The notes beneath the pieces are model-generated. The model saw only the letters and a program-made list of their open reading frames with translations. It ran no database searches and was not told where the DNA came from. Shown here one piece after another: positions 5,483-16,453 of a stretch of DNA of 64,000 bases (position 1 is the first letter of the stretch; every line of letters starts with the position of its first letter). This DNA comes from Gautieria morchelliformis (Eukaryota; Basidiomycota; Agaricomycetes; Gomphales; Gomphaceae): assembly GCA_015179125.1 (NCBI GenBank), contig WHVA01000125.1, positions 1 through 64,000 on the forward strand, read 5' to 3'. Made by a program: the position numbers and the translations under genes.

Positions 5483-6655
5483 TTACTCCACCGTCCTCAC
5501 ATCCCCTTCCTCGCTCTCCTCGCTATCTTCGCCCGACTCCTCCCCATTACTACTACTACCTCGCTCCACTAGACCCCCATATCCCCCATACTCCGCCAAA
5601 TCTCTCGCATCCTGCAGACGTCTCAAATAGTTCCTCCGCCTCCTTATCCTCATGAACTCTATATCCGCTCTGTTCATCCTGTCGTTCGCCGCTCTAAACT
5701 CCCCCAACAACTCACACACCCTCTCCCCAACCTCGCCCACCTTCTGTCCCACATCCCTCACCGCCGCTATCAACTCCCTCATCTCCACACTTCGCTCCAA
5801 CCTCTTCGTCTTCTTATCCTTCTTCGCCCTCCGACATTCCACCTCGGCTTCCTCTACCTCAGTTTCCTTCCCCTCACCCTGCCCCACTTCCCCAACCTCT
5901 CTCCCCTCACTCTGCCTCGCTCCCCCAGTCTTCTTCTTCCCCTTCTCCTCGCTCAACCTCGCTTCCATCCTCTCCACCCTCGTCTCCAAATTCCGCTCGA
6001 CCCAGTCGCTTGAGTCGTCGTCCTCCTCAACCTCGCCCCGAGCCTTGGCCTCCTTCCTCGGCCTCGGCCCGTCCTCGCTATCCTCGCTCCTCGCCCGCTT
6101 CTTGCCCGCTGCGCTCGCCTGACTTTTCCCAGAGGTCGCCTTGCTGCGATGGCCTAAGGCTATACTACAGCCTAAAGACCGCGTCCTGCACCATACGCAG
6201 GCCCCCTGGTCGGTGATGCCGAAGTCGAGGCTCACCTGGCAAAGGCACATGTAATCGCGCTCTTCGCAGCGTGCGCACCTCGCCTCGGGCTTCACCCCGA
6301 GCTACCACGCTCGAGGACCCCCATCAGCGAGCTTGTACCCGTATAGGGTCAAGTCTGTCGGGTGGTAAGCGAAGAGCATTCGCTTGTACTACTCAAGTCA
6401 GCGAACAGCAAAAGACAATACTACTCAACGACTCACCTTTTTGCCATTCGGCCCTTCCTGCCACAGCTGCCGCATGTCGATGGCCCCCGTCTCATCAATT
6501 GGCAATGTGCCAACTTCGGGTCGATCCTCAGGCATAACCTTGCCCGAGGCTCCGTTCTCCTCAGACAGCAATGTCTGGTCGAACGCGTTGTTCACGCTGT
6601 TCTCGTCGACGGCTGAGTTGAAGAGGGGTTGCGGGCGCACCATATTCATTGGCAC
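5483..6655 (-). pseudogene. Antisense spliced gene inside chromovirus 1: Cys-rich, charged, coiled-coil protein
   Basis: Minus strand, opposite to pol, lying between the pol stop and the 3' LTR. Exon 1 is 6655-6437 and starts MPMNMVRPQPLFNSAVDENS. A GTGAGT...AG intron follows (6436-6389, 48 nt), then exon 2 from 6388 (YKRMLFAYHPTDLTLYGY). In the same frame, a TAG near 6305 sits where a CAG would be expected, then CARCEERDYMCLC and ACVWCRTRSLGC, a cluster of paired cysteines resembling a zinc-binding module. The last 200 residues are acidic/basic low complexity with a predicted coiled coil (RMNRADIEFMRIRRRRNYLR). Antisense ORFs at this position are, from general knowledge, a feature of some basidiomycete gypsy elements; the function is unknown. 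One stop codon makes this copy a pseudogene unless translation restarts at M near 6295. Confidence 0.65.
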
Positions 6656-7510: not shown

Positions 7511-7519
7511 GGTTGTACT

Positions 7520-8047
7520 TAGTGTTACCGCCAGCTTGGCTCGGCTCCGGCTAAGCTGCTGATTAGCTGAGCCAAGCTGATTCCCAAAAGCCGGCTTAAA
7601 TTCACGCCGGTTACCATTAAGCCGGCTATAAGACAGCTAGCCGGGATAAGCCGTGGGATAGATTATGTCATCCACGGCGATTCCTCGCCGCTTTCCTCAA
7701 GTTCTTATTGTCCCTTTGCGTGTAAGTCTCATACTTACTGCTGTAGCAGACGGTTGAGAATACTGAAATTTGGCCAGCTCCATGGAGTATGTATACTTAG
7801 GTAAGTCATTGGAGTACTAGCGTTCCGTTTCCGCAGTCAATATTTGGGCGGCGGCGGTGCTATTCACATGTGAAAGGGTAACAACGCTAACCTCTCAACA
7901 GAGGTTTGAGCAGGCTCAATCCAATTCCTCCGTCAAGTTTTTACCCTAAAGTCTCAGCCGAATGCTATAAACATTCACGATATACGCGTAAGTTTTCTTC
8001 TCCGCAAGCGCTTCAAAGTCATTATTTCTTCTCCTCAGGTGCCAACG
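7520..8047 (+). promoter_or_regulatory. hAT left subterminal and promoter region
   Basis: About 530 bp upstream of the transposase ATG. The first 130 bp hold several copies of GCCGGCTT and GAGCCAAGCTG-like motifs in both orientations, the usual form of hAT transposase-binding sites. No other gene was seen. Confidence 0.5.
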
Positions 8048-11000
8048 ATGGGTCCAAAGCTTCGTGAAGCTAGGGCTCGCCCACTGTACGAGGATGCAAT
8101 CTTTCAGCTCATCCAAGAAGATAATGATGTTAATTCTCATATTAATGATGACGGTAATTCTCATATTAATGATTTTGTAGAAGGTCCAGTCACACGTGGG
8201 ACTCGAGGAAGAGGCAGGGGCAGGGGCCGAGGCGGAGGCAGGGGCAAGGTGCGAGTAGCAAACGGGCAAGTGGAACATGTTGACCCTGGGCCCGAACCAC
8301 CTACCAACGCTTCAGAGGAACGATCTCAGCACAGACGTGAGAAGCAACGTGAGGACCGACATGCACGCAACCAGGCAGAGCGTGAGTCTCACAATATCGA
8401 CATTTTTTTTGGCGGTTCAACACCCCCGCCTCCACCTGCAACCCCACCACCCGATCCACCACCACAACCTAGAACGCCGACCCTAGATAGGCAAGCTGAC
8501 CCTCCCACCTCTGTACGGCGTGTTGTGGTCACTCGCATCATACGTACACCGGCGTCCCCTTTCGCACGACCTAGGGGTGCATTTACTAATGTGACATTGT
8601 CCTCCATTAGTAACCCGCTTTCTCGAACTCGTAGGCCAGCAGTCGGTGCACCTGATGTTTGGGAATTTTTCACTAAGGGTAATGTCGCAAAAGGTGTCAA
8701 GACTATTTGCAAACTATGCTAGTAAGTACTTTGTTGTGTTATTCTAATAATTTCTTACAATTTGATTTTGCAGCCCACCCGTGGAATATTCCCCTTCGAC
8801 GAGCACTGGTTCTCTGCACGTTCACATTGAAGCACATCATGCCTATGAATATCTCGCAGCTTGCCGGGAGAAAGGTTGGCCGGTCAAGATAAAATCACTC
8901 ACTCTTTCCAAAAGTGATCAAAAAGTGATGACTCAGCCTGAGCCACGCCCACCTTTCTCAACCGGTCGGTTTAAAGCGGCCCTAGTCAATTGGATCGTTG
9001 CAGATGATCAGGTACGTGGGATACAATGTGCTTTTATAACTAATCCATATTCTCAAACATTTAGTCCATTAATGTTGTCGAATGCCCTGAATTCCGTGAC
9101 CTTTTGCTTTTGCTAAGAGAATCCCTACTGAGCTGTGATATCCCGCACCGAACCACAATCCGCAGCTTAATTGGAAAGGCATGGGATCACAACTTCAGAG
9201 AACTCAAAAAGGAGCTAGCAGTAAGTTTATCTCGTGAATTGTATAGGAATACTAAATCTCACACTTCATATACTAGCAATCGGTTGGGAAGATATCACTT
9301 AGAATGGACATATGGGATGATAAGAGTATGCGTGCGTATGGAGCTGTAACTGCTCACTACTTACTTCGTGGGTCAACATCGATGTCACTGGCTGGTAAGG
9401 GAGAGCTGGTGCTATGTGCTGCTCTGATCGGTTTCCTTCCAATGCCTGGCCGCCACTTTGGTCAGGATCTTGCGAAGGGTTTGCTTTTTATCACAGATCA
9501 TGTCAACATAACGGACAAGGCAAGCTATTTATTTTCTCACACAGTTATCACGACTAAATCCCTGTAGATTATGTTTGTCACTACAGATGGTGCATCTAAT
9601 ATGACCGCAATGATGCATGACTTTGAACATCTCCTAATGGCGCGATTCATAGATTTCGATAGTGCTAATCAACAAATCATGTAAGTTTCGCTATTATTGA
9701 ATAGCCTCAGTCTTCTTACTGTATTTAGCTGCTTCCCACATCGTCTTCATGTCACCGTTGCCACCATGCTACGAGAATGCACAAGCATCGAGGCATTAGA
9801 AAATTCTACTGGTGATTTTGGCCTGACTGAGGAACCGGTAAATCCTTCTAGTCAGACACCTGCACAGGCCTTACAGCGCGATCTGGTTGCGATTGCGCGC
9901 AACATTGTGAACACAATTCGGACCTCCCAACTTCGCCGTGAGGAATTTAAAGAGATCATTTCAACTGGCAACCGTCGAGCACGCTGGCTCAATGATCAGA
10001 AGATGCCTTACCAAATGGCACATGTCACCCTTATTCGGGATAGTCCAATCCGATGGGGATCATCGTATATGATGATTGAACGGACATTGTATCTTCGTCA
10101 GGTAAGTTGTTCTGGTGCTATTGATGAATATGAAATGCTAATGTTTTTTTAGGCAATTGAAGTTTATACTTCACCACCAGTCATGAGTACTGTCTTCAAG
10201 CAACGACTCACAAACAACGAATGGGCGGTTCTGAAGGATATAAAAGATGTATTAGAGGCAAGTCTTGTTTATCTCTTTAACCTAAGTGCAATACTTATTC
10301 CATCAAGCCGGCTCATGCTCTACAAGCTGTTATGTGCACCGATTGCTTGCGTACTCCCAGCTTTCGATGCCCTCCTATCGTCTTGGACACGGATGCGCAA
10401 GGAGCCTTCAAAGGCACACCTAAGAAAGATGATTGATGCAGCGATTGAAAAAATGACCTCACAGTACAACGAGCGTCGGTTTTCAAAGGCTCATATTATT
10501 TCCATTGGTATGTGGCAAATAGATACAATATGAGTTTGCTAATCAAGCCTTGGCCAGTTCTTCATCCATCGCTCAGATTTCGGTGGATTGAAAGGAATTG
10601 GCCGACCAATCAGGTTGCATTTGCTAAACGGACTATTCTATCGGAGGTAAGTTATCACACTCTGCTATACAATGAAAAGTGACCATGATCACCTAGCTTG
10701 CAAAATACGACGGGTGTCAACCAGCTATTCAATCTACCAGAGAGACCATAAACCTACCAGGCTTGTCACGCAATGTCTACACACTCCTTTTCGGCCAGGG
10801 AATCGATGAGACTCAAACAGGGCGTACCTCAGGCTTACCATCGATCGAAGAAGAATGGGACTCTTATTGTCATGCTGCGAACTGGCCCGACATATATAGT
10901 GTCGACCTAGTAAAATGGTGGGATGTGAGTAATAATATCTTTGTTTGATTCAACATTCTAATCATAACCAGCACAACGACGGAAACTATCCGCGACTTTC

Positions 11001-11412
11001 TCATTGGGCACTCGACTACCTCCCAGCACAAGCGTCGTCGGTCCCTGCGGAGCGGGTCTTCTCTTCTAGCGCAGAGACAGATACACGTCGCAGAAACCGC
11101 ATATCACCCTATCTGATGGAGCAACTCCAGATGCTCAAATTTATGATCAAGAAGGCATGGCTGGATTTCACGGATAGCTGGAAGTGGGAGGAGAAAGATA
11201 TAGAACGGGAGAACACATGGCAAGACCAGGGGTTCTCAGCATGTATGCAGAACCCTCACAACGACTTTGACTGGCAGATGGATATATTGAGTGACAAGGA
11301 TGCACAGGAGATCGATAGGGAGGCCAATAGGGGATCTGGGAGGGACTCAACAGATCTAGAGCCCGAAGAGTTTACTTTTGAGAGCTGTGACGAATGGGAG
11401 GAACTTAAGTAG
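8048..11412 (+). CDS. hAT transposase with BED zinc finger, 10 exons, reading frame intact
   Basis: Exons by hand: 8048-8721, 8774-9011, 9065-9220, 9277-9519, 9568-9680, 9729-10101, 10153-10507, 10558-10646, 10697-10924, 10972-11412. They sum to 2,910 nt (969 residues) in phase with no stop. The N-terminal 220 residues are RG-rich and proline-rich. A BED finger spans intron 1 (CKLC at residues 221-224, then paired histidines in HVHIEAHH). The RNase H-like core shows KISLRMDIWDD, FVTTDGASNM and, near the C-terminus, the hAT dimerisation block: KWWD, YPRLSHWALDYL and ASSVPAERVFSSS with the conserved glutamate. Intron 4 (9520-9567) is GC-AG. All landmarks of the family are present, so the protein could be active. 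It excises and inserts hAT ends in the nucleus. Confidence 0.88.
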
Positions 11413-11570
11413 GTCTTGTAATAATGAGTTTCTAATACCAACAACGTATATTTCCTAAGTATTGCAAAAAATCTCGAACAGACTGGCCCAGGCGCCAGAG
11501 GTTCGGAGCATGAACACTGTTGCTCTTGACCACGAGCCTCTTCACTCCAGCATCTATCGCTCTTACACAC

Positions 11571-12806
11571 ATGCCTCCCAAACGCAAGACCGCTAGAGGC
11601 GGAGGACGAGCAAAGCGCCCCAGGGAGTCGTCCGTCGTCGCTCAAGGCTCTGACGAGCAGGCTCACAAACGTCAGCGCGTTGATGACACCAGTACTGCAG
11701 CTGCGCCAGATGGGACAGCAGCTGGCTCTTCAAAAATACAGGACCACCCACTTCTCGCAGAAGGAGACGAAGATGCCGAAGGGGAAGCTGAAGACGATAG
11801 GATGGATCCCATGCAGGGAGAGGACGCAGAAGGTCAGAGGGAAGACATTGCAAATCCTGATCATGTGCAGGGGCAGGACGCTGTAACTGACGAGGGGAAT
11901 GATACTCACCAAGGCGTCGAAATGGACACTGCTGACCCCACACCGTCCACATCCACCCACGGACGTGGGCACGGAAGAGGTAGAGGCCGACGCGGCAGAG
12001 GTACCCCCCCTCCACGGAGAAGTCCGCGCAAGGGCCCAGCGGACCCTACGTCTACGCCCCCCAATCCCCGTGGACGAAAACTCACTCGAGGCAGAGGCAG
12101 AAGCAGAGGCACGGCGGCTTCCGGCCCTTCAAGCACCAATGTACATGCAATCGAGGATGGAACCGCGCAAGCCACAGGGGAAGATGAATCTCATAATGAG
12201 GAGACCGCAGGCAACGCCACGGCCACCGGCCACCACCCACCTCCCGAACCTGAGTCCCCAGAACCTCAATTCCAACAGCATCAGCAGCCGGCCGACGATG
12301 CGCAACAGCAGCTCCCTCCCCAAATACCTGCTGCAGACCCTGCTCTCCAGACTCCAAGCCACTTTGCGCCGCATCCCTACGTCTATTATCCAACCTATTC
12401 GTCACACGCACCACCCTTTTCATACCAATATGTCCCGCCTCCGCCACACCCAGCCGTGCCGGATGGCCAATCGTACCTCGCGCTCCGTCCAGATGGAGGG
12501 CCGCCAGTGTACGGTGCAAGCTTTGCGACAACTGTCGGGACTGGGAATGGGATAAATTCAGCCTCCCCATCTTTCAATGCATCATATCCGACACCCGTAG
12601 CACCTGAGCACTCTCTTGACGCGAATGCGCCGCAAGGAAACCCTTTTCCTCCGGCCATACCCATGGTTATACCCGCGTATGGTTCGACCGTGTACAGTGT
12701 TGGCGCTCTGTCCGATGATGATGATGATGACGTGAAGCCGGAGCAGGATCAGGTTGTCGCTAGCAGCCGCATGCCACCAACGAGAAGCACCAGGAATGTC
12801 ACGTGA
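11571..12806 (+). CDS. Low-complexity RG/P/Q-rich protein inside hAT, unknown function
   Basis: Open frame of about 410 codons from MPPKRKTARGGGRAKRPRES, just downstream of the transposase and on the same strand. Seen: a basic N-terminus resembling a nuclear localisation signal, an acidic block, two RGG-like clusters (GRGHGRGRGRRGRG and RGRGRSRG), then a P/Q/Y-rich tail. It ends at TGA 12806. No domain is recognised. The composition suggests a disordered nucleic-acid-associated protein. It could be a second transposon gene or a captured host gene. The next ORF (12803-13192) may be its continuation through an unseen intron. Confidence 0.5.
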   Translation: MPPKRKTARGGGRAKRPRESSVVAQGSDEQAHKRQRVDDTSTAAAPDGTAAGSSKIQDHPLLAEGDEDAEGEAEDDRMDPMQGEDAEGQREDIANPDHVQGQDAVTDEGNDTHQGVEMDTADPTPSTSTHGRGHGRGRGRRGRGTPPPRRSPRKGPADPTSTPPNPRGRKLTRGRGRSRGTAASGPSSTNVHAIEDGTAQATGEDESHNEETAGNATATGHHPPPEPESPEPQFQQHQQPADDAQQQLPPQIPAADPALQTPSHFAPHPYVYYPTYSSHAPPFSYQYVPPPPHPAVPDGQSYLALRPDGGPPVYGASFATTVGTGNGINSASPSFNASYPTPVAPEHSLDANAPQGNPFPPAIPMVIPAYGSTVYSVGALSDDDDDDVKPEQDQVVASSRMPPTRSTRNVT

Positions 12807-13192
12807 AGCTTCTCCAAGCAAGCGTAGATCAAAAAGAGTCTGAGGCAGCAGAGCGAAAGGAGACATTTGCTCGCCTGCAGCGTATATTTCCAGGCACGCC
12901 TTCGCTTCATGACCCGTTCTCAAACCACGCTGATATCCAGCCTACGTTGGTTGGGTGCAACAGCGGCATGCTTGGGCCCACAGCCCATCCAGGAGGTAGA
13001 GAGGGCAAAGCGGGGAAGAAGAGCGAAAAGAAGAAGAAAGGTGCCGTGCAACCTGCTCTTCCTTCTAATGCTCCCCCCGTTGCCATAACACCAGTTCCAT
13101 ATCCGATTCCCTCCGCCCCGCTTCCTGCTCCGTCCTCACCAGTCTCGCCATCCACAGTACTTGCCCCCACAGGTTTTCTGGACTCGCGCTGA
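12803..13192 (+). CDS. Possible C-terminal part of the low-complexity hAT gene
   Basis: Reading KLLQASVDQKESEAAERKET then a lysine cluster (KAGKKSEKKKKG) and a proline-rich tail ending FLDSR-stop. It overlaps the preceding stop by 4 nt in another frame. Similar style of composition supports it as a downstream exon, but no clear splice pair was found; a frameshift between the two ORFs is equally possible. Confidence 0.35.
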   Translation: MKLLQASVDQKESEAAERKETFARLQRIFPGTPSLHDPFSNHADIQPTLVGCNSGMLGPTAHPGGREGKAGKKSEKKKKGAVQPALPSNAPPVAITPVPYPIPSAPLPAPSSPVSPSTVLAPTGFLDSR

Positions 13193-13315
13193 GTTGCGTC
13201 GCGTGACAACCAGTGGCCTGAGGGGTGCGGTGTATCTTTGTTTTTGGAGCCTCTAACATTGAGGTCTAGTGAAATTTTCCCTGTTTCATTGCTTGGATGT
13301 CTAAGTTTCTTTCAG

Positions 13316-13665
13316 GTTTTATCATGGATGGGTCGAATGTCCTTGACCCGGGCTTCCTCGAGCGCATGAATACACTCCTCGCCAATGCAGAGGTGCCGGT
13401 TTTTTTTTTTGAAGGGGACGAACACTCCACTCTCATGACTGCTTGCAAAGAGGGTTCTCAGTGAGATGGTTTAATGCTGGATCTCACGAAGAACTGTATC
13501 GCTGGTTCACGCAACAGGTTGCCAAGAATCTACATGTCGTATTTACCATGAACCCACCAGAGAATGGACTGGCATCTCGAGCTGCCACTTCTCCAGCTTT
13601 GTTCAATCGAGCGTTCCAGACTGGTTTGGCGATTGGAACGATCAAGCTTTCTATCAGCTGGAACG
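13316..13665 (+). pseudogene. Captured exon of cytoplasmic dynein heavy chain inside the hAT element
   Basis: Preceded by TTTCTTTCAG, a splice acceptor, and followed by GTAAGT, a donor, so a whole exon with flanking intron was captured. Translation gives [19 protein letters not shown], then [48 protein letters not shown] and [10 protein letters not shown], diagnostic of the AAA4 region of dynein heavy chain (the Walker-B-like stretch and sensor region). It is broken by a 12-T run replacing coding sequence near 13400, an in-frame TGA near 13462 (CGA to TGA type) and a frameshift after ALFNR, beyond which [13 protein letters not shown] is readable in another frame. It cannot make a motor; it is a transduplicated host fragment. 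Confidence 0.87.
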
Positions 13666-13873
13666 GTAAGTTATATATTTGATTTAAGTAAGCGACATCA
13701 TTACATAACGTTTCCGCTCCAAACCTGTAGCAGCGACGATCACAACAACTTAGCGGCAACGGAGACAATGAAGATTTTGATTGATAGAGTTATGTTACTA
13801 ATCTAAAATAATGTATTAATAAACCCGTATCTCCCCCCTTAAGTATGTTCGGCTTCCGGCTAAAAGCCGGCTT

Positions 13874-14256
13874 TTACAGCGCTTTGCAGTACCTAAGGCA
13901 GGTGCTGATTTTGCATGTGTTTTAGCTGCAAGGCTTAAAACAACGATAACTCAGGGAATACTGCTCTGATTGGTTCGAAATTTTGTATATAACTTTATGT
14001 AGATAATAGGTAGGGCACAGAGTAATAACCTCACTAAAAATCAAGCAATTTGAAAATCCCAATTTTTGTGTGAATTTCAAAGTGGATGACTTTGCTGGAT
14101 ATTATTGTTCTGTGCCCTGCATATGATCTACATAAAGCTATATACAAAATTTTGAAGCAATCAGAGCAGTATTGCCTGAAATATCGCTGTTTTAAGTCTT
14201 GCAGCTAAAGCACGCACAAAATCAGTGCCTGCCTTACATACTGCAAAGCGCTGTAA
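13874..14256. mobile_element. Foldback / MITE-like inverted repeat nested in hAT
   Basis: Two arms of about 160-180 bp are imperfect reverse complements: the left begins TTACAGCGCTTTGCAGTA and the right ends TACTGCAAAGCGCTGTAA. They are separated by a short AT-rich loop near 14050-14080. No coding capacity. The clean ends inside the hAT right subterminal region suggest a separate non-autonomous element that inserted there; no convincing target duplication was found. Confidence 0.65.
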
Positions 14257-14363
14257 CCAAGCCAAGCTGAGGAACCGCAGCTTGGCTTATAGCCATAATT
14301 ATAATAGCCGGCTCTCGTAAGCGTGGCTCGGCGCTAAGCCAAAGCCGCGCCGCGGCAACACTA
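14257..14363 (+). repeat. hAT right subterminal region and inverted repeat
   Basis: Contains AGCCAAGC, AGCTTGGC and AGCCGGCT motifs matching the left subterminal set, ending in GCGGCAACACTA, the right terminal inverted repeat. Confidence 0.6.
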
Positions 14364-14518
14364 GTTGTCTTAGTACGTAGAATAGTGTGTTTAAAGGCTT
14401 GCCATGAAGTACACAAAGTAAGTCTTGTCAGTTCCCCGTGTATATTTCGCCACATAACCAGTACTACTTCCTCCACCGGTTACTTATGAAGGACATTGAT
14501 TCACACAACAATATTTCT

Positions 14519-14982: not shown

Positions 14983-16453
14983 TTACAAGGCTAATCCTGT
15001 GTCATCGCTTTGACTCCTTGGAATTGTGAGTAGATCTCCACCACTGTACAGCACGAGGTCAGCTGCTGACAGGATACGACATTTCATTGCACGACGCACC
15101 TCGACCGACCGCTGGATGCCCTCCGCAAGGCCCACATCCGGCTCGTACCCCAACACCCGACGCGCCTTCTCGATGTTATAGTAGCGCGACGCACACATAT
15201 ACGTCACCCGCTCCTGCGTGAACGTAGGGTCCACGCCCCGCGCCCAATACACCCACTCGGCGGCCCACGCGAAGAGATACCCCACGGGCTGCGGCAGCAC
15301 CCACTTCCCGTGCTCCAGATTACGCTTGGGCGCACCCAGCCCGAGCATCAGCGACCGGAGCGGGTCCCAGAAATACACCGGCTCGCCGTTCGTGATGTTG
15401 AACACCTGCCCGGCCACTTGGAGGGGGTCTTCCGTCTCCCTCGCCAGCGCGGGCGCGCCCAGCGGGTCGTATTTGGACCGCACGAATGCCCGTCGCTCGG
15501 TTCTGCGCGGTAAGGCGAACGCGGCCTCGAGTTCGGCGGCATTGGGGGGACGTATGACCGCAGGTCCGACGGGGCGCGCGAGCGAGGTGGGAATCCGACG
15601 TTCGGCCGTGGTACACGAGATGGGTGCTACAGGACCTTCGAGGAGCTTTTCCCTAGGCGCGACTTTCGAGGATAAAAGCTTGTCCGCCGCGAGCAGATGT
15701 GCCTTGACGACGTTCCCGACGTACGTCCAATCCACCAGGTTATTATTAGAGCCGACCTGGAACTTGGTCTGGCCGCGTTCGACGGTATTAGCGATGACCC
15801 GCACTGTCTGTCGGTCTCCCGGGCTGCCGGGCGATGAGATCGTCGTTAGAAGAAGTTAACTTTGAAGGAAAGAAAAATTTACCCGAATATACCGGATGGT
15901 CTTAGAGCGACGGTCCTCATGCCCTCCTTTCCATTTGCTTCGATTACCATACGCTCGGCAACGCCCTTTGTATGGTTGTATGCATCCATAGGCTTTTCGG
16001 GGGGCGGCAAACGTTCATCCGCATCAATGAGGTGCTGTCCGTCGAATACAAGGCCCGCACTACTGGTGTAAATGAAGTACGTGACACCGAGGGCTACAGA
16101 GGCAGCGAGAACGGTCTTGGTTCCCTCGACGTTGACCCTCTGGTACAGCTCCTGGGGTAAGCCAGTAACGGGCGACGCGGTGTGGAAGATGGTGGTTGCT
16201 TGTGTCTACGTTCAGAAATTTAAGAAAAATCAGATTTGGATTTAGAGAAGAGACGTGCCTTCTGGATTGCATTTTTGACAGCGACCTCGTCGGTAATGTC
16301 ACCTGTGAAAAATTGGATGTTCGTGTCGAAGTGCCGCTGTACTAAATCGAATACGGCCACTTGGAGCTCTCCCCGGGCGAGCAGAGCTTCAACGAGATGT
16401 CGTCCCAGAAATCCGCAGCCTCCAATGACCAGGTATGATTGCTGGGAGCTCAT
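14983..16453 (-). CDS. ERG26: Sterol-4-alpha-carboxylate 3-dehydrogenase (decarboxylating), ERG26-like
   Basis: Three exons on the minus strand: 16453-16259, 16205-15883, 15823-14983 (1,359 nt, 452 residues, in phase). Family knowledge: an NAD(P)-dependent short-chain dehydrogenase of the 3-beta-HSD type, acting on the endoplasmic reticulum to oxidise and decarboxylate C-4 carboxy sterols in ergosterol synthesis. Seen: the Rossmann glycine motif GGCGFLG at about residues 11-17, TSSA near 112-115 with the catalytic serine, and the YNHTK (YxxxK) motif at 141-145. NNLVDWTYVGNVVKAHLLA is the family's typical mid-protein stretch. Intron 1 (16258-16206) starts with GC instead of GT. The ATG chosen gives the Rossmann fold directly at the N-terminus. 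It lies head-to-tail behind the GNL1-like gene, 124 bp apart. Confidence 0.92.

Follow-up and report, generated by a model that had tools for sequence, protein, structure and literature searches.

Layered pieces of several host genes within a hAT transposon of the fungus Gautieria morchelliformis

The DNA analysed here (the window) is the first 64,000 nucleotides of contig WHVA01000125.1 of the basidiomycete Gautieria morchelliformis (C144:1-64000 in our contig numbering). It contains a hAT transposon at positions 7520 to 14363, 6844 bp long including a nested foldback, on the plus strand like all of its parts described below for which a strand is given. Comparison with copies on other contigs of the 122-Mb assembly (1113 contigs) leads us to consider it likely that the part of the element that extends from the transposase stop codon to the right end has repeatedly gained, and partly lost, pieces of host genes copied from DNA; these would have been captured, and earlier ones overwritten, step by step, probably as breaks or gaps were repaired. 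Serial capture at the DNA level is the firmer part of this reading and is, to judge from the aligned copies, very probable; repair of gaps as the mechanism is favoured more modestly. Genome copy counts are lower bounds, the best 40 of 368 candidates having been scored.

The right half of the element was searched against the genome, and 2121 of the 6844 bp (11546-13666) correspond to five abutting captured segments from five contigs, four of them parts of host genes. The first derives from a gene for a Zn2Cys6 transcription factor (11546-12778; donor C185:144512-145727, 95.5 % identity) and includes the start codon (11571) and part of the first long open stretch, the zinc cluster being absent. 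It is followed by pieces of SMC1 (12778-12944; C384:67245-67414, 90 %) and NST1 (12944-13131; C550:29186-29379, 85 %), by a fragment of a dispersed repeat (13131-13228; best match C132:19231-19328, 90 %), part of which occurs at at least 19 further places among the matches listed, and by a piece of the cytoplasmic dynein heavy chain gene from the AAA4 region (13228-13666; C441:35411-35945). Each of the four inner junctions (12778, 12944, 13131 and 13228) has a 1-base overlap. Beyond the dynein piece lies the inner right end of the hAT element (13667-13876), which is conserved (88 %) in a related family from about position 13806; the genome search found no origin for 13667 to about 13732. The donors lie on other contigs, and those of the gene pieces are low-copy and have host-gene flanks. 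Identities of these donors, and of others introduced below, were assigned by matches to protein structures (dynein, E-value about 1e-114; SMC1, 1e-19) and to Pfam families (NST1, PF13945, 6e-36; NAA15, PF12569, 1.5e-27; Zn_clus, PF00172, 1.4e-7; Amino_oxidase, PF01593, 1.7e-5); alcohol oxidase was assigned by a match with an E-value of 6e-22. A preliminary description, made from the sequence of the window alone, had recognized the dynein piece; the four further segments at 11546-13228 come in addition to it.

The element is bounded by short terminal inverted repeats (TIRs) of the form TAGTGTTrCCGC at both ends, as is usual for hAT elements: in the window copy TAGTGTTACCGC... begins at 7520, within a left terminal region (7520-7550) that starts TAGTGTTACCGCC..., and ...GCGGCAACACTA ends at 14363, closing the right end (14254-14363). 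The flanking target duplications, to which no strand is assigned, are GTTGTACT (8 bp, 7512-7519) and GTTGTCTT (14364-14371), identical at six of eight bases. Six copies could be read at both ends, and all have the 8-bp target-site duplication of the hAT superfamily, perfect in C793 and C650, with seven of eight bases matching in C626, C230 and C659 and six of eight in the window. Over the span 7520-14363, four copies (C793, C626, C650 and C230) align with about 96-98 % identity and differ by indels. We take the two ends to belong to one element, because these ends, each pair with its own target duplication, recur in the sister copies. The matching terminal repeats and imperfect 8-bp duplication of the preliminary description are borne out, and the sister copies refute neither the joining of the two ends nor the position of the dynein piece inside them. 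The inverted ends and 8-bp duplications also exclude a Helitron.

Identical junction sequences between the captured segments recur in sister copies inserted elsewhere, each flanked by its own target duplication, and in all six copies that reach that point (window, C793, C626, C650, C230 and C449) the dynein piece is followed by the right end of the element. Host gene sequence therefore lies between inverted ends and has been multiplied with the element, as in transduplication, and the claim that the dynein sequence was captured inside the hAT element, and moved with it, stands. The junctions were compared over 40 bases each; the C449, C215 and C931 records fall short of most junctions, and scores near 20 there are uninformative, while C604 stops at 13125 and was not scored beyond it. 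Scores of 33/40 and 29/40 at two junctions of C650 fit its own 4-bp and 1-bp deletions. The SMC1/NST1, repeat/dynein and dynein/end junctions of C449 were read separately.

The dynein piece matches the host gene, which is on a different contig (C441) from the element, at 84 % over 13228-13299 and at 94 % over 13316-13666. It begins 42 bp upstream of a host exon, within an intron, the exon itself starting at 13270, and it stops mid-exon, the host exon continuing beyond the end of the capture at 13666. In the window copy 112 bp of the host exon are replaced by 16 bp (13300-13315), and TTTCTTTCAG at 13306-13315, which had been taken for a splice acceptor, is the end of this replacement. The apparent donor GG/TAAGTT at 13666 arises at the join with non-dynein sequence, and two 1-base deletions relative to the host gene lie near the end of the piece in both the window and C449. 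The earlier view of a complete dynein exon with acceptor and donor is accordingly abandoned in favour of a frameshifted fragment whose splice signals are not those of the host gene. The dynein AAA_8 family was matched at three places: the host gene, the C793 copy and the C449 copy. As far as the compared sequences indicate, several captures took place in series, and the dynein piece represents a single layer in this longer history.

This history can be followed by comparing copies with different loads. Six copies (window, C793, C626, C650, C230 and C604) carry the transcription-factor piece. C449, the left part of which is missing, shares the SMC1/NST1, repeat/dynein and dynein/end junctions and has no transcription-factor piece; its SMC1 piece is longer instead and retains two introns, which are about 90 % identical. 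Set into this SMC1 piece are 63 bp from a flavin amine oxidase gene (donor C402, 94 %) and 710 bp from an alcohol oxidase gene (donor C318, 95-97 %). The joins of the oxidase pieces show an overlap of 2 bases, a 1-base filler and a 2-base filler. The six copies in which the transcription-factor piece sits do not have the opening part of the SMC1 piece, and the transcription-factor piece has therefore replaced an earlier load; as it lies where C449 has the longer SMC1 piece, its capture was accompanied by loss of inner sequence. We note that a high-copy repeat of about 430 bp (C449:195408-195835), with CTTTC at both sides, splits the alcohol oxidase piece of C449.

The related family, about 75 % alike, has other sequences in the same slot: pieces of NAA15 (C113, 81-85 %) and of a calpain-like gene (C571, 90-91 %), another stretch of NST1 (C550, 83-85 %), and a minisatellite. 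In C705 two NST1 stretches are joined and followed by a hAT right end, and in C200 a NAA15 piece lies directly behind the transposase. A candidate second NAA15 locus on C211 proved to be another relative of the element. Several smaller features were also seen: the minisatellite (L015, approximately 5740-6040) is strongly expanded in C205 and is also found in C582 and C256; locus L051 (C705:10950-14144) has a related hAT right end with a copy of the window foldback nearby; and the host NAA15 exon (L060, C113:456301-457700) has one base fewer in a T run than the captured copies do, possibly through an assembly error or decay of the host copy.

From these comparisons we read a series of layers in which NST1 and NAA15 would be old, SMC1, the repeat fragment and dynein younger, and either the transcription factor or the amine and alcohol oxidases youngest. 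Synonymous divergence (dS) from the donors agrees with this order, being higher for dynein (0.12-0.13 in three copies) than for the transcription factor (0.031-0.053 in six copies). The suggestion of a live capture system is retained in reduced form: the low dS of the transcription-factor piece and the 95-97 % identity of the alcohol oxidase piece point to repeated and fairly recent capture, and to that only.

As a mechanism, we propose that a double-strand break or excision gap would arise inside the element, and that repair through strand invasion of unrelated loci and switching between templates, closing with end joining, would replace inner sequence with foreign pieces and leave both element ends in place; the loaded copy could then transpose with its pieces. 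Introns are retained in the captured pieces, and DNA was therefore the template copied. Repair of the template-switch type has been discussed for animal Pack-TIR elements (PMC8277862). The principal rival is neighbouring insertion, in which a pair of closely spaced copies is mobilized along with the intervening DNA, and the load is later reduced by deletions (PMC8903248). This would also give capture of DNA with introns and would keep both ends (PMC8903248), but here five unlinked donors abut directly, their junctions bearing no trace of element ends, and C449 has two gene pieces inside an earlier captured piece, which would take many rounds and exact loss of the inner ends; we consider it improbable. 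Repair with template switching fits better because it accommodates the replacement of inner sequence, the intact ends, the unlinked donors, the introns, the tiny overlaps and the captures within captures.

Some points weigh against this reading of stepwise capture by repair. The capture event itself was not observed, and the genome yielded no empty copy of precisely this family that could be its precursor. The 1-base overlaps would also be expected from plain end joining, and they do not distinguish template switching from the joining of loose fragments. Several inserts in the capture region (in C449, C604 and C937, and at 13131-13228) are ordinary repeats, and the calpain label of the C571 donor is weak (E-value 0.14, with no Pfam match). 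The ratio of nonsynonymous to synonymous divergence (dN/dS) between dynein pieces and donor is 0.28-0.54 in three copies, below the neutral value, which we tentatively ascribe to constraint on the host gene. The comparison covers a single genome.

A second rival would make the second half of the element a functional chimeric gene under selection, carried for the element's own benefit. All pieces are in the sense orientation, the start codon of the transcription factor is included, and in the window copy one open frame (12803-13192) runs across the SMC1, NST1 and repeat pieces. Against this, the transcription-factor frame terminates at 12804-12806, just within the SMC1 piece; indels that are not multiples of three break it in four of six copies (C793, C626, C650 and C604); and its dN/dS relative to the donor is 0.50-1.09 in the six copies, three of which contain stops. 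A constrained chimeric gene was rejected on these grounds, and we think a selected function for the element very improbable; the captured pieces are better read as passengers without function.

Uptake of spliced transcripts or retrocopies, as proposed for histone H3 in Pseudocercospora fijiensis (PMC6710886), would agree with the sense orientation of all eight gene donors found, but the captures are not intronless in the manner of that case: the SMC1 piece of C449 contains two introns, the dynein piece begins with the 3' end of one, and the amine oxidase and calpain-like pieces, by inspection, include intron sequence. Capture of spliced RNA was rejected accordingly, and we rate RNA capture slightly below even the chimeric gene; unspliced pre-mRNA is a possible source. 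That the inner pieces are unrelated nested repeats or assembly joins deserves hardly any credence, for although repeats do occur there (the window foldback, the 430-bp repeat of C449, those of C604 and C937, and the 13131-13228 piece), the donors of the gene pieces are low-copy and flanked by host-gene sequence, and the junctions recur on several contigs.

The element carries this load beside a transposase gene (8048-11412), whose boundaries, inferred from sequence, define 11 exons: 8048-8721, 8774-9011, 9065-9220, 9277-9519, 9568-9680, 9729-10101, 10153-10257, 10308-10507, 10558-10646, 10697-10924 and 10972-11412. The exon count rests on comparison of copies, with splice boundaries predicted from sequence. 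The gene is frameshifted in exon 8 of the window copy by a private 14-bp deletion (between 10342 and 10343), the 14 bp being kept in all six other copies spanning this point, and the spliced translation has 15 stops downstream of it. The preliminary description had given ten exons and no stop; an intact transposase in the window is rejected. Its 'structurally intact' hAT is accordingly an element with both ends and a broken transposase, and its dynein capture beside a full transposase holds as regards the adjacent gene but not the integrity of that gene in this copy. Among five full-length copies translated with the same exon boundaries, only that of C650 is open (965 aa, 11 exons); C793 contains four internal stops, and the reading frame is lost in the window, C626 and C230. 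The hAT C-terminal dimerization domain (Dimer_Tnp_hAT, PF05699) is found in the last exon of the window copy (E-value 4.1e-9) and in the C650 translation (1.9e-12), where it is the sole Pfam match. The family may thus include a member with a competent transposase, and the window copy is not that member. Among protein matches the best belongs to Sphaerobolus stellatus (47 % identical across 74 % of the query region), and the 11 of 14 matches with a named source come from the agaricomycete genera Mycena, Piloderma, Laccaria, Candolleomyces, Ramaria, Leucocoprinus, Tetrapyrgos and Sphaerobolus. The introns at 9520 and 10258 start with GC, not GT, in all five copies printed.

The foldback, which had previously been missed, lies between TA duplications at 13877-14253 (377 bp, no strand assigned; arms of 188 nt, 82 % complementary). 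It is present in the window copy only, the site being empty in all five sister copies read, and other foldback copies are on C320, C308, C892 and C705. Inserts in C604 and C937 were considered as captured genes and rejected as repeats, with at least 39 and at least 50 further matches respectively (the best 40 of 1209 and of 122 candidates being scored initially). Outside the element, an open reading frame on the minus strand (14983-15804) matches 3-beta-hydroxysteroid dehydrogenase (PF01073, E-value 2.2e-12) and is presumably ERG26-like.

Gene capture by hAT elements of fungi has been published, and in this respect the case is less unusual than the preliminary description supposed. A hAT of Pyrenophora tritici-repentis with a histone H3-like gene, described as the first fungal transduplication, likewise has a host-derived gene between inverted ends, amplified with the element, and a full-length transposase; it carries one recognized host gene and an open reading frame of unknown function, whereas the pieces described here come from several genes, are layered and vary among copies (PMC3538342). 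The hAT of P. fijiensis and relatives shares the 8-bp target duplication and the capture and multiplication of host gene sequence, but its histone H3 has no introns, a feature attributed to a transcript or retrocopy, and its copies have been hit by repeat-induced point mutation (RIP); here introns are retained and there are several donors (PMC6710886). The Hatvine-6 hAT family of grapevine also combines a conserved transposase and ends with a variable region matching host exons and introns, although in a plant and with no layered order of capture given in the text available (PMC2528002). Maize Helitrons resemble our element in the stepwise addition of several gene fragments, read from related copies, and differ from it in lacking inverted ends and 8-bp duplications (PMC3288121); Helitrons of Pleurotus also carry captured genes (PMC4289320). 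Animal Pack-TIR (PMC8277862) and plant Pack-TYPE (PMC8903248) elements similarly hold host sequence between TIR transposon ends, and gap filling, fork switching or neighbouring insertions have been proposed as their origin (PMC8277862, PMC8903248). Pack-TYPE elements are described as non-autonomous (PMC8903248), whereas this load adjoins a transposase gene that is open in one of five full-length copies; the window copy is frameshifted and C650, with the same load, is open. All published fungal hAT captures that we found concern histone H3. Our literature search, which left most subscription papers outside, found neither a multi-gene hAT mosaic in a fungus nor Pack-TIR capture in fungi; within the sources consulted, the multi-gene layered mosaic is new, gene capture by fungal hATs as such being known from the histone H3 cases (PMC3538342, PMC6710886).

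All eight gene donors found (transcription factor, SMC1, NST1, dynein, amine oxidase, alcohol oxidase, NAA15 and calpain-like) are in the sense orientation relative to the transposase, for which the two-sided binomial probability is 0.0078, or 0.016 with seven donors. In so small a set from a single genome this is a lead only. It is conceivable, if doubtful, that the sequence downstream of the transposase takes up captures directionally, pieces entering it, or persisting in it, only in the sense of transcription. Capture might depend on both donor and element being transcribed; alternatively, a piece of an essential gene (dynein, SMC1 or NAA15) taken up in antisense might silence the host gene and be lost. 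If this is true, every lineage would have, after a working transposase, a series of sense-oriented host exons that changes over time and would constantly supply chimeric transcripts. The orientation provides a concrete hypothesis to test in other genomes. The related copies in this one genome keep successive layers that show directly in what order pieces were captured, how they were overwritten, which scars the junctions bear and which donors were used; such copies are a natural series in which the acquisition of host DNA by TIR transposons can be tested.

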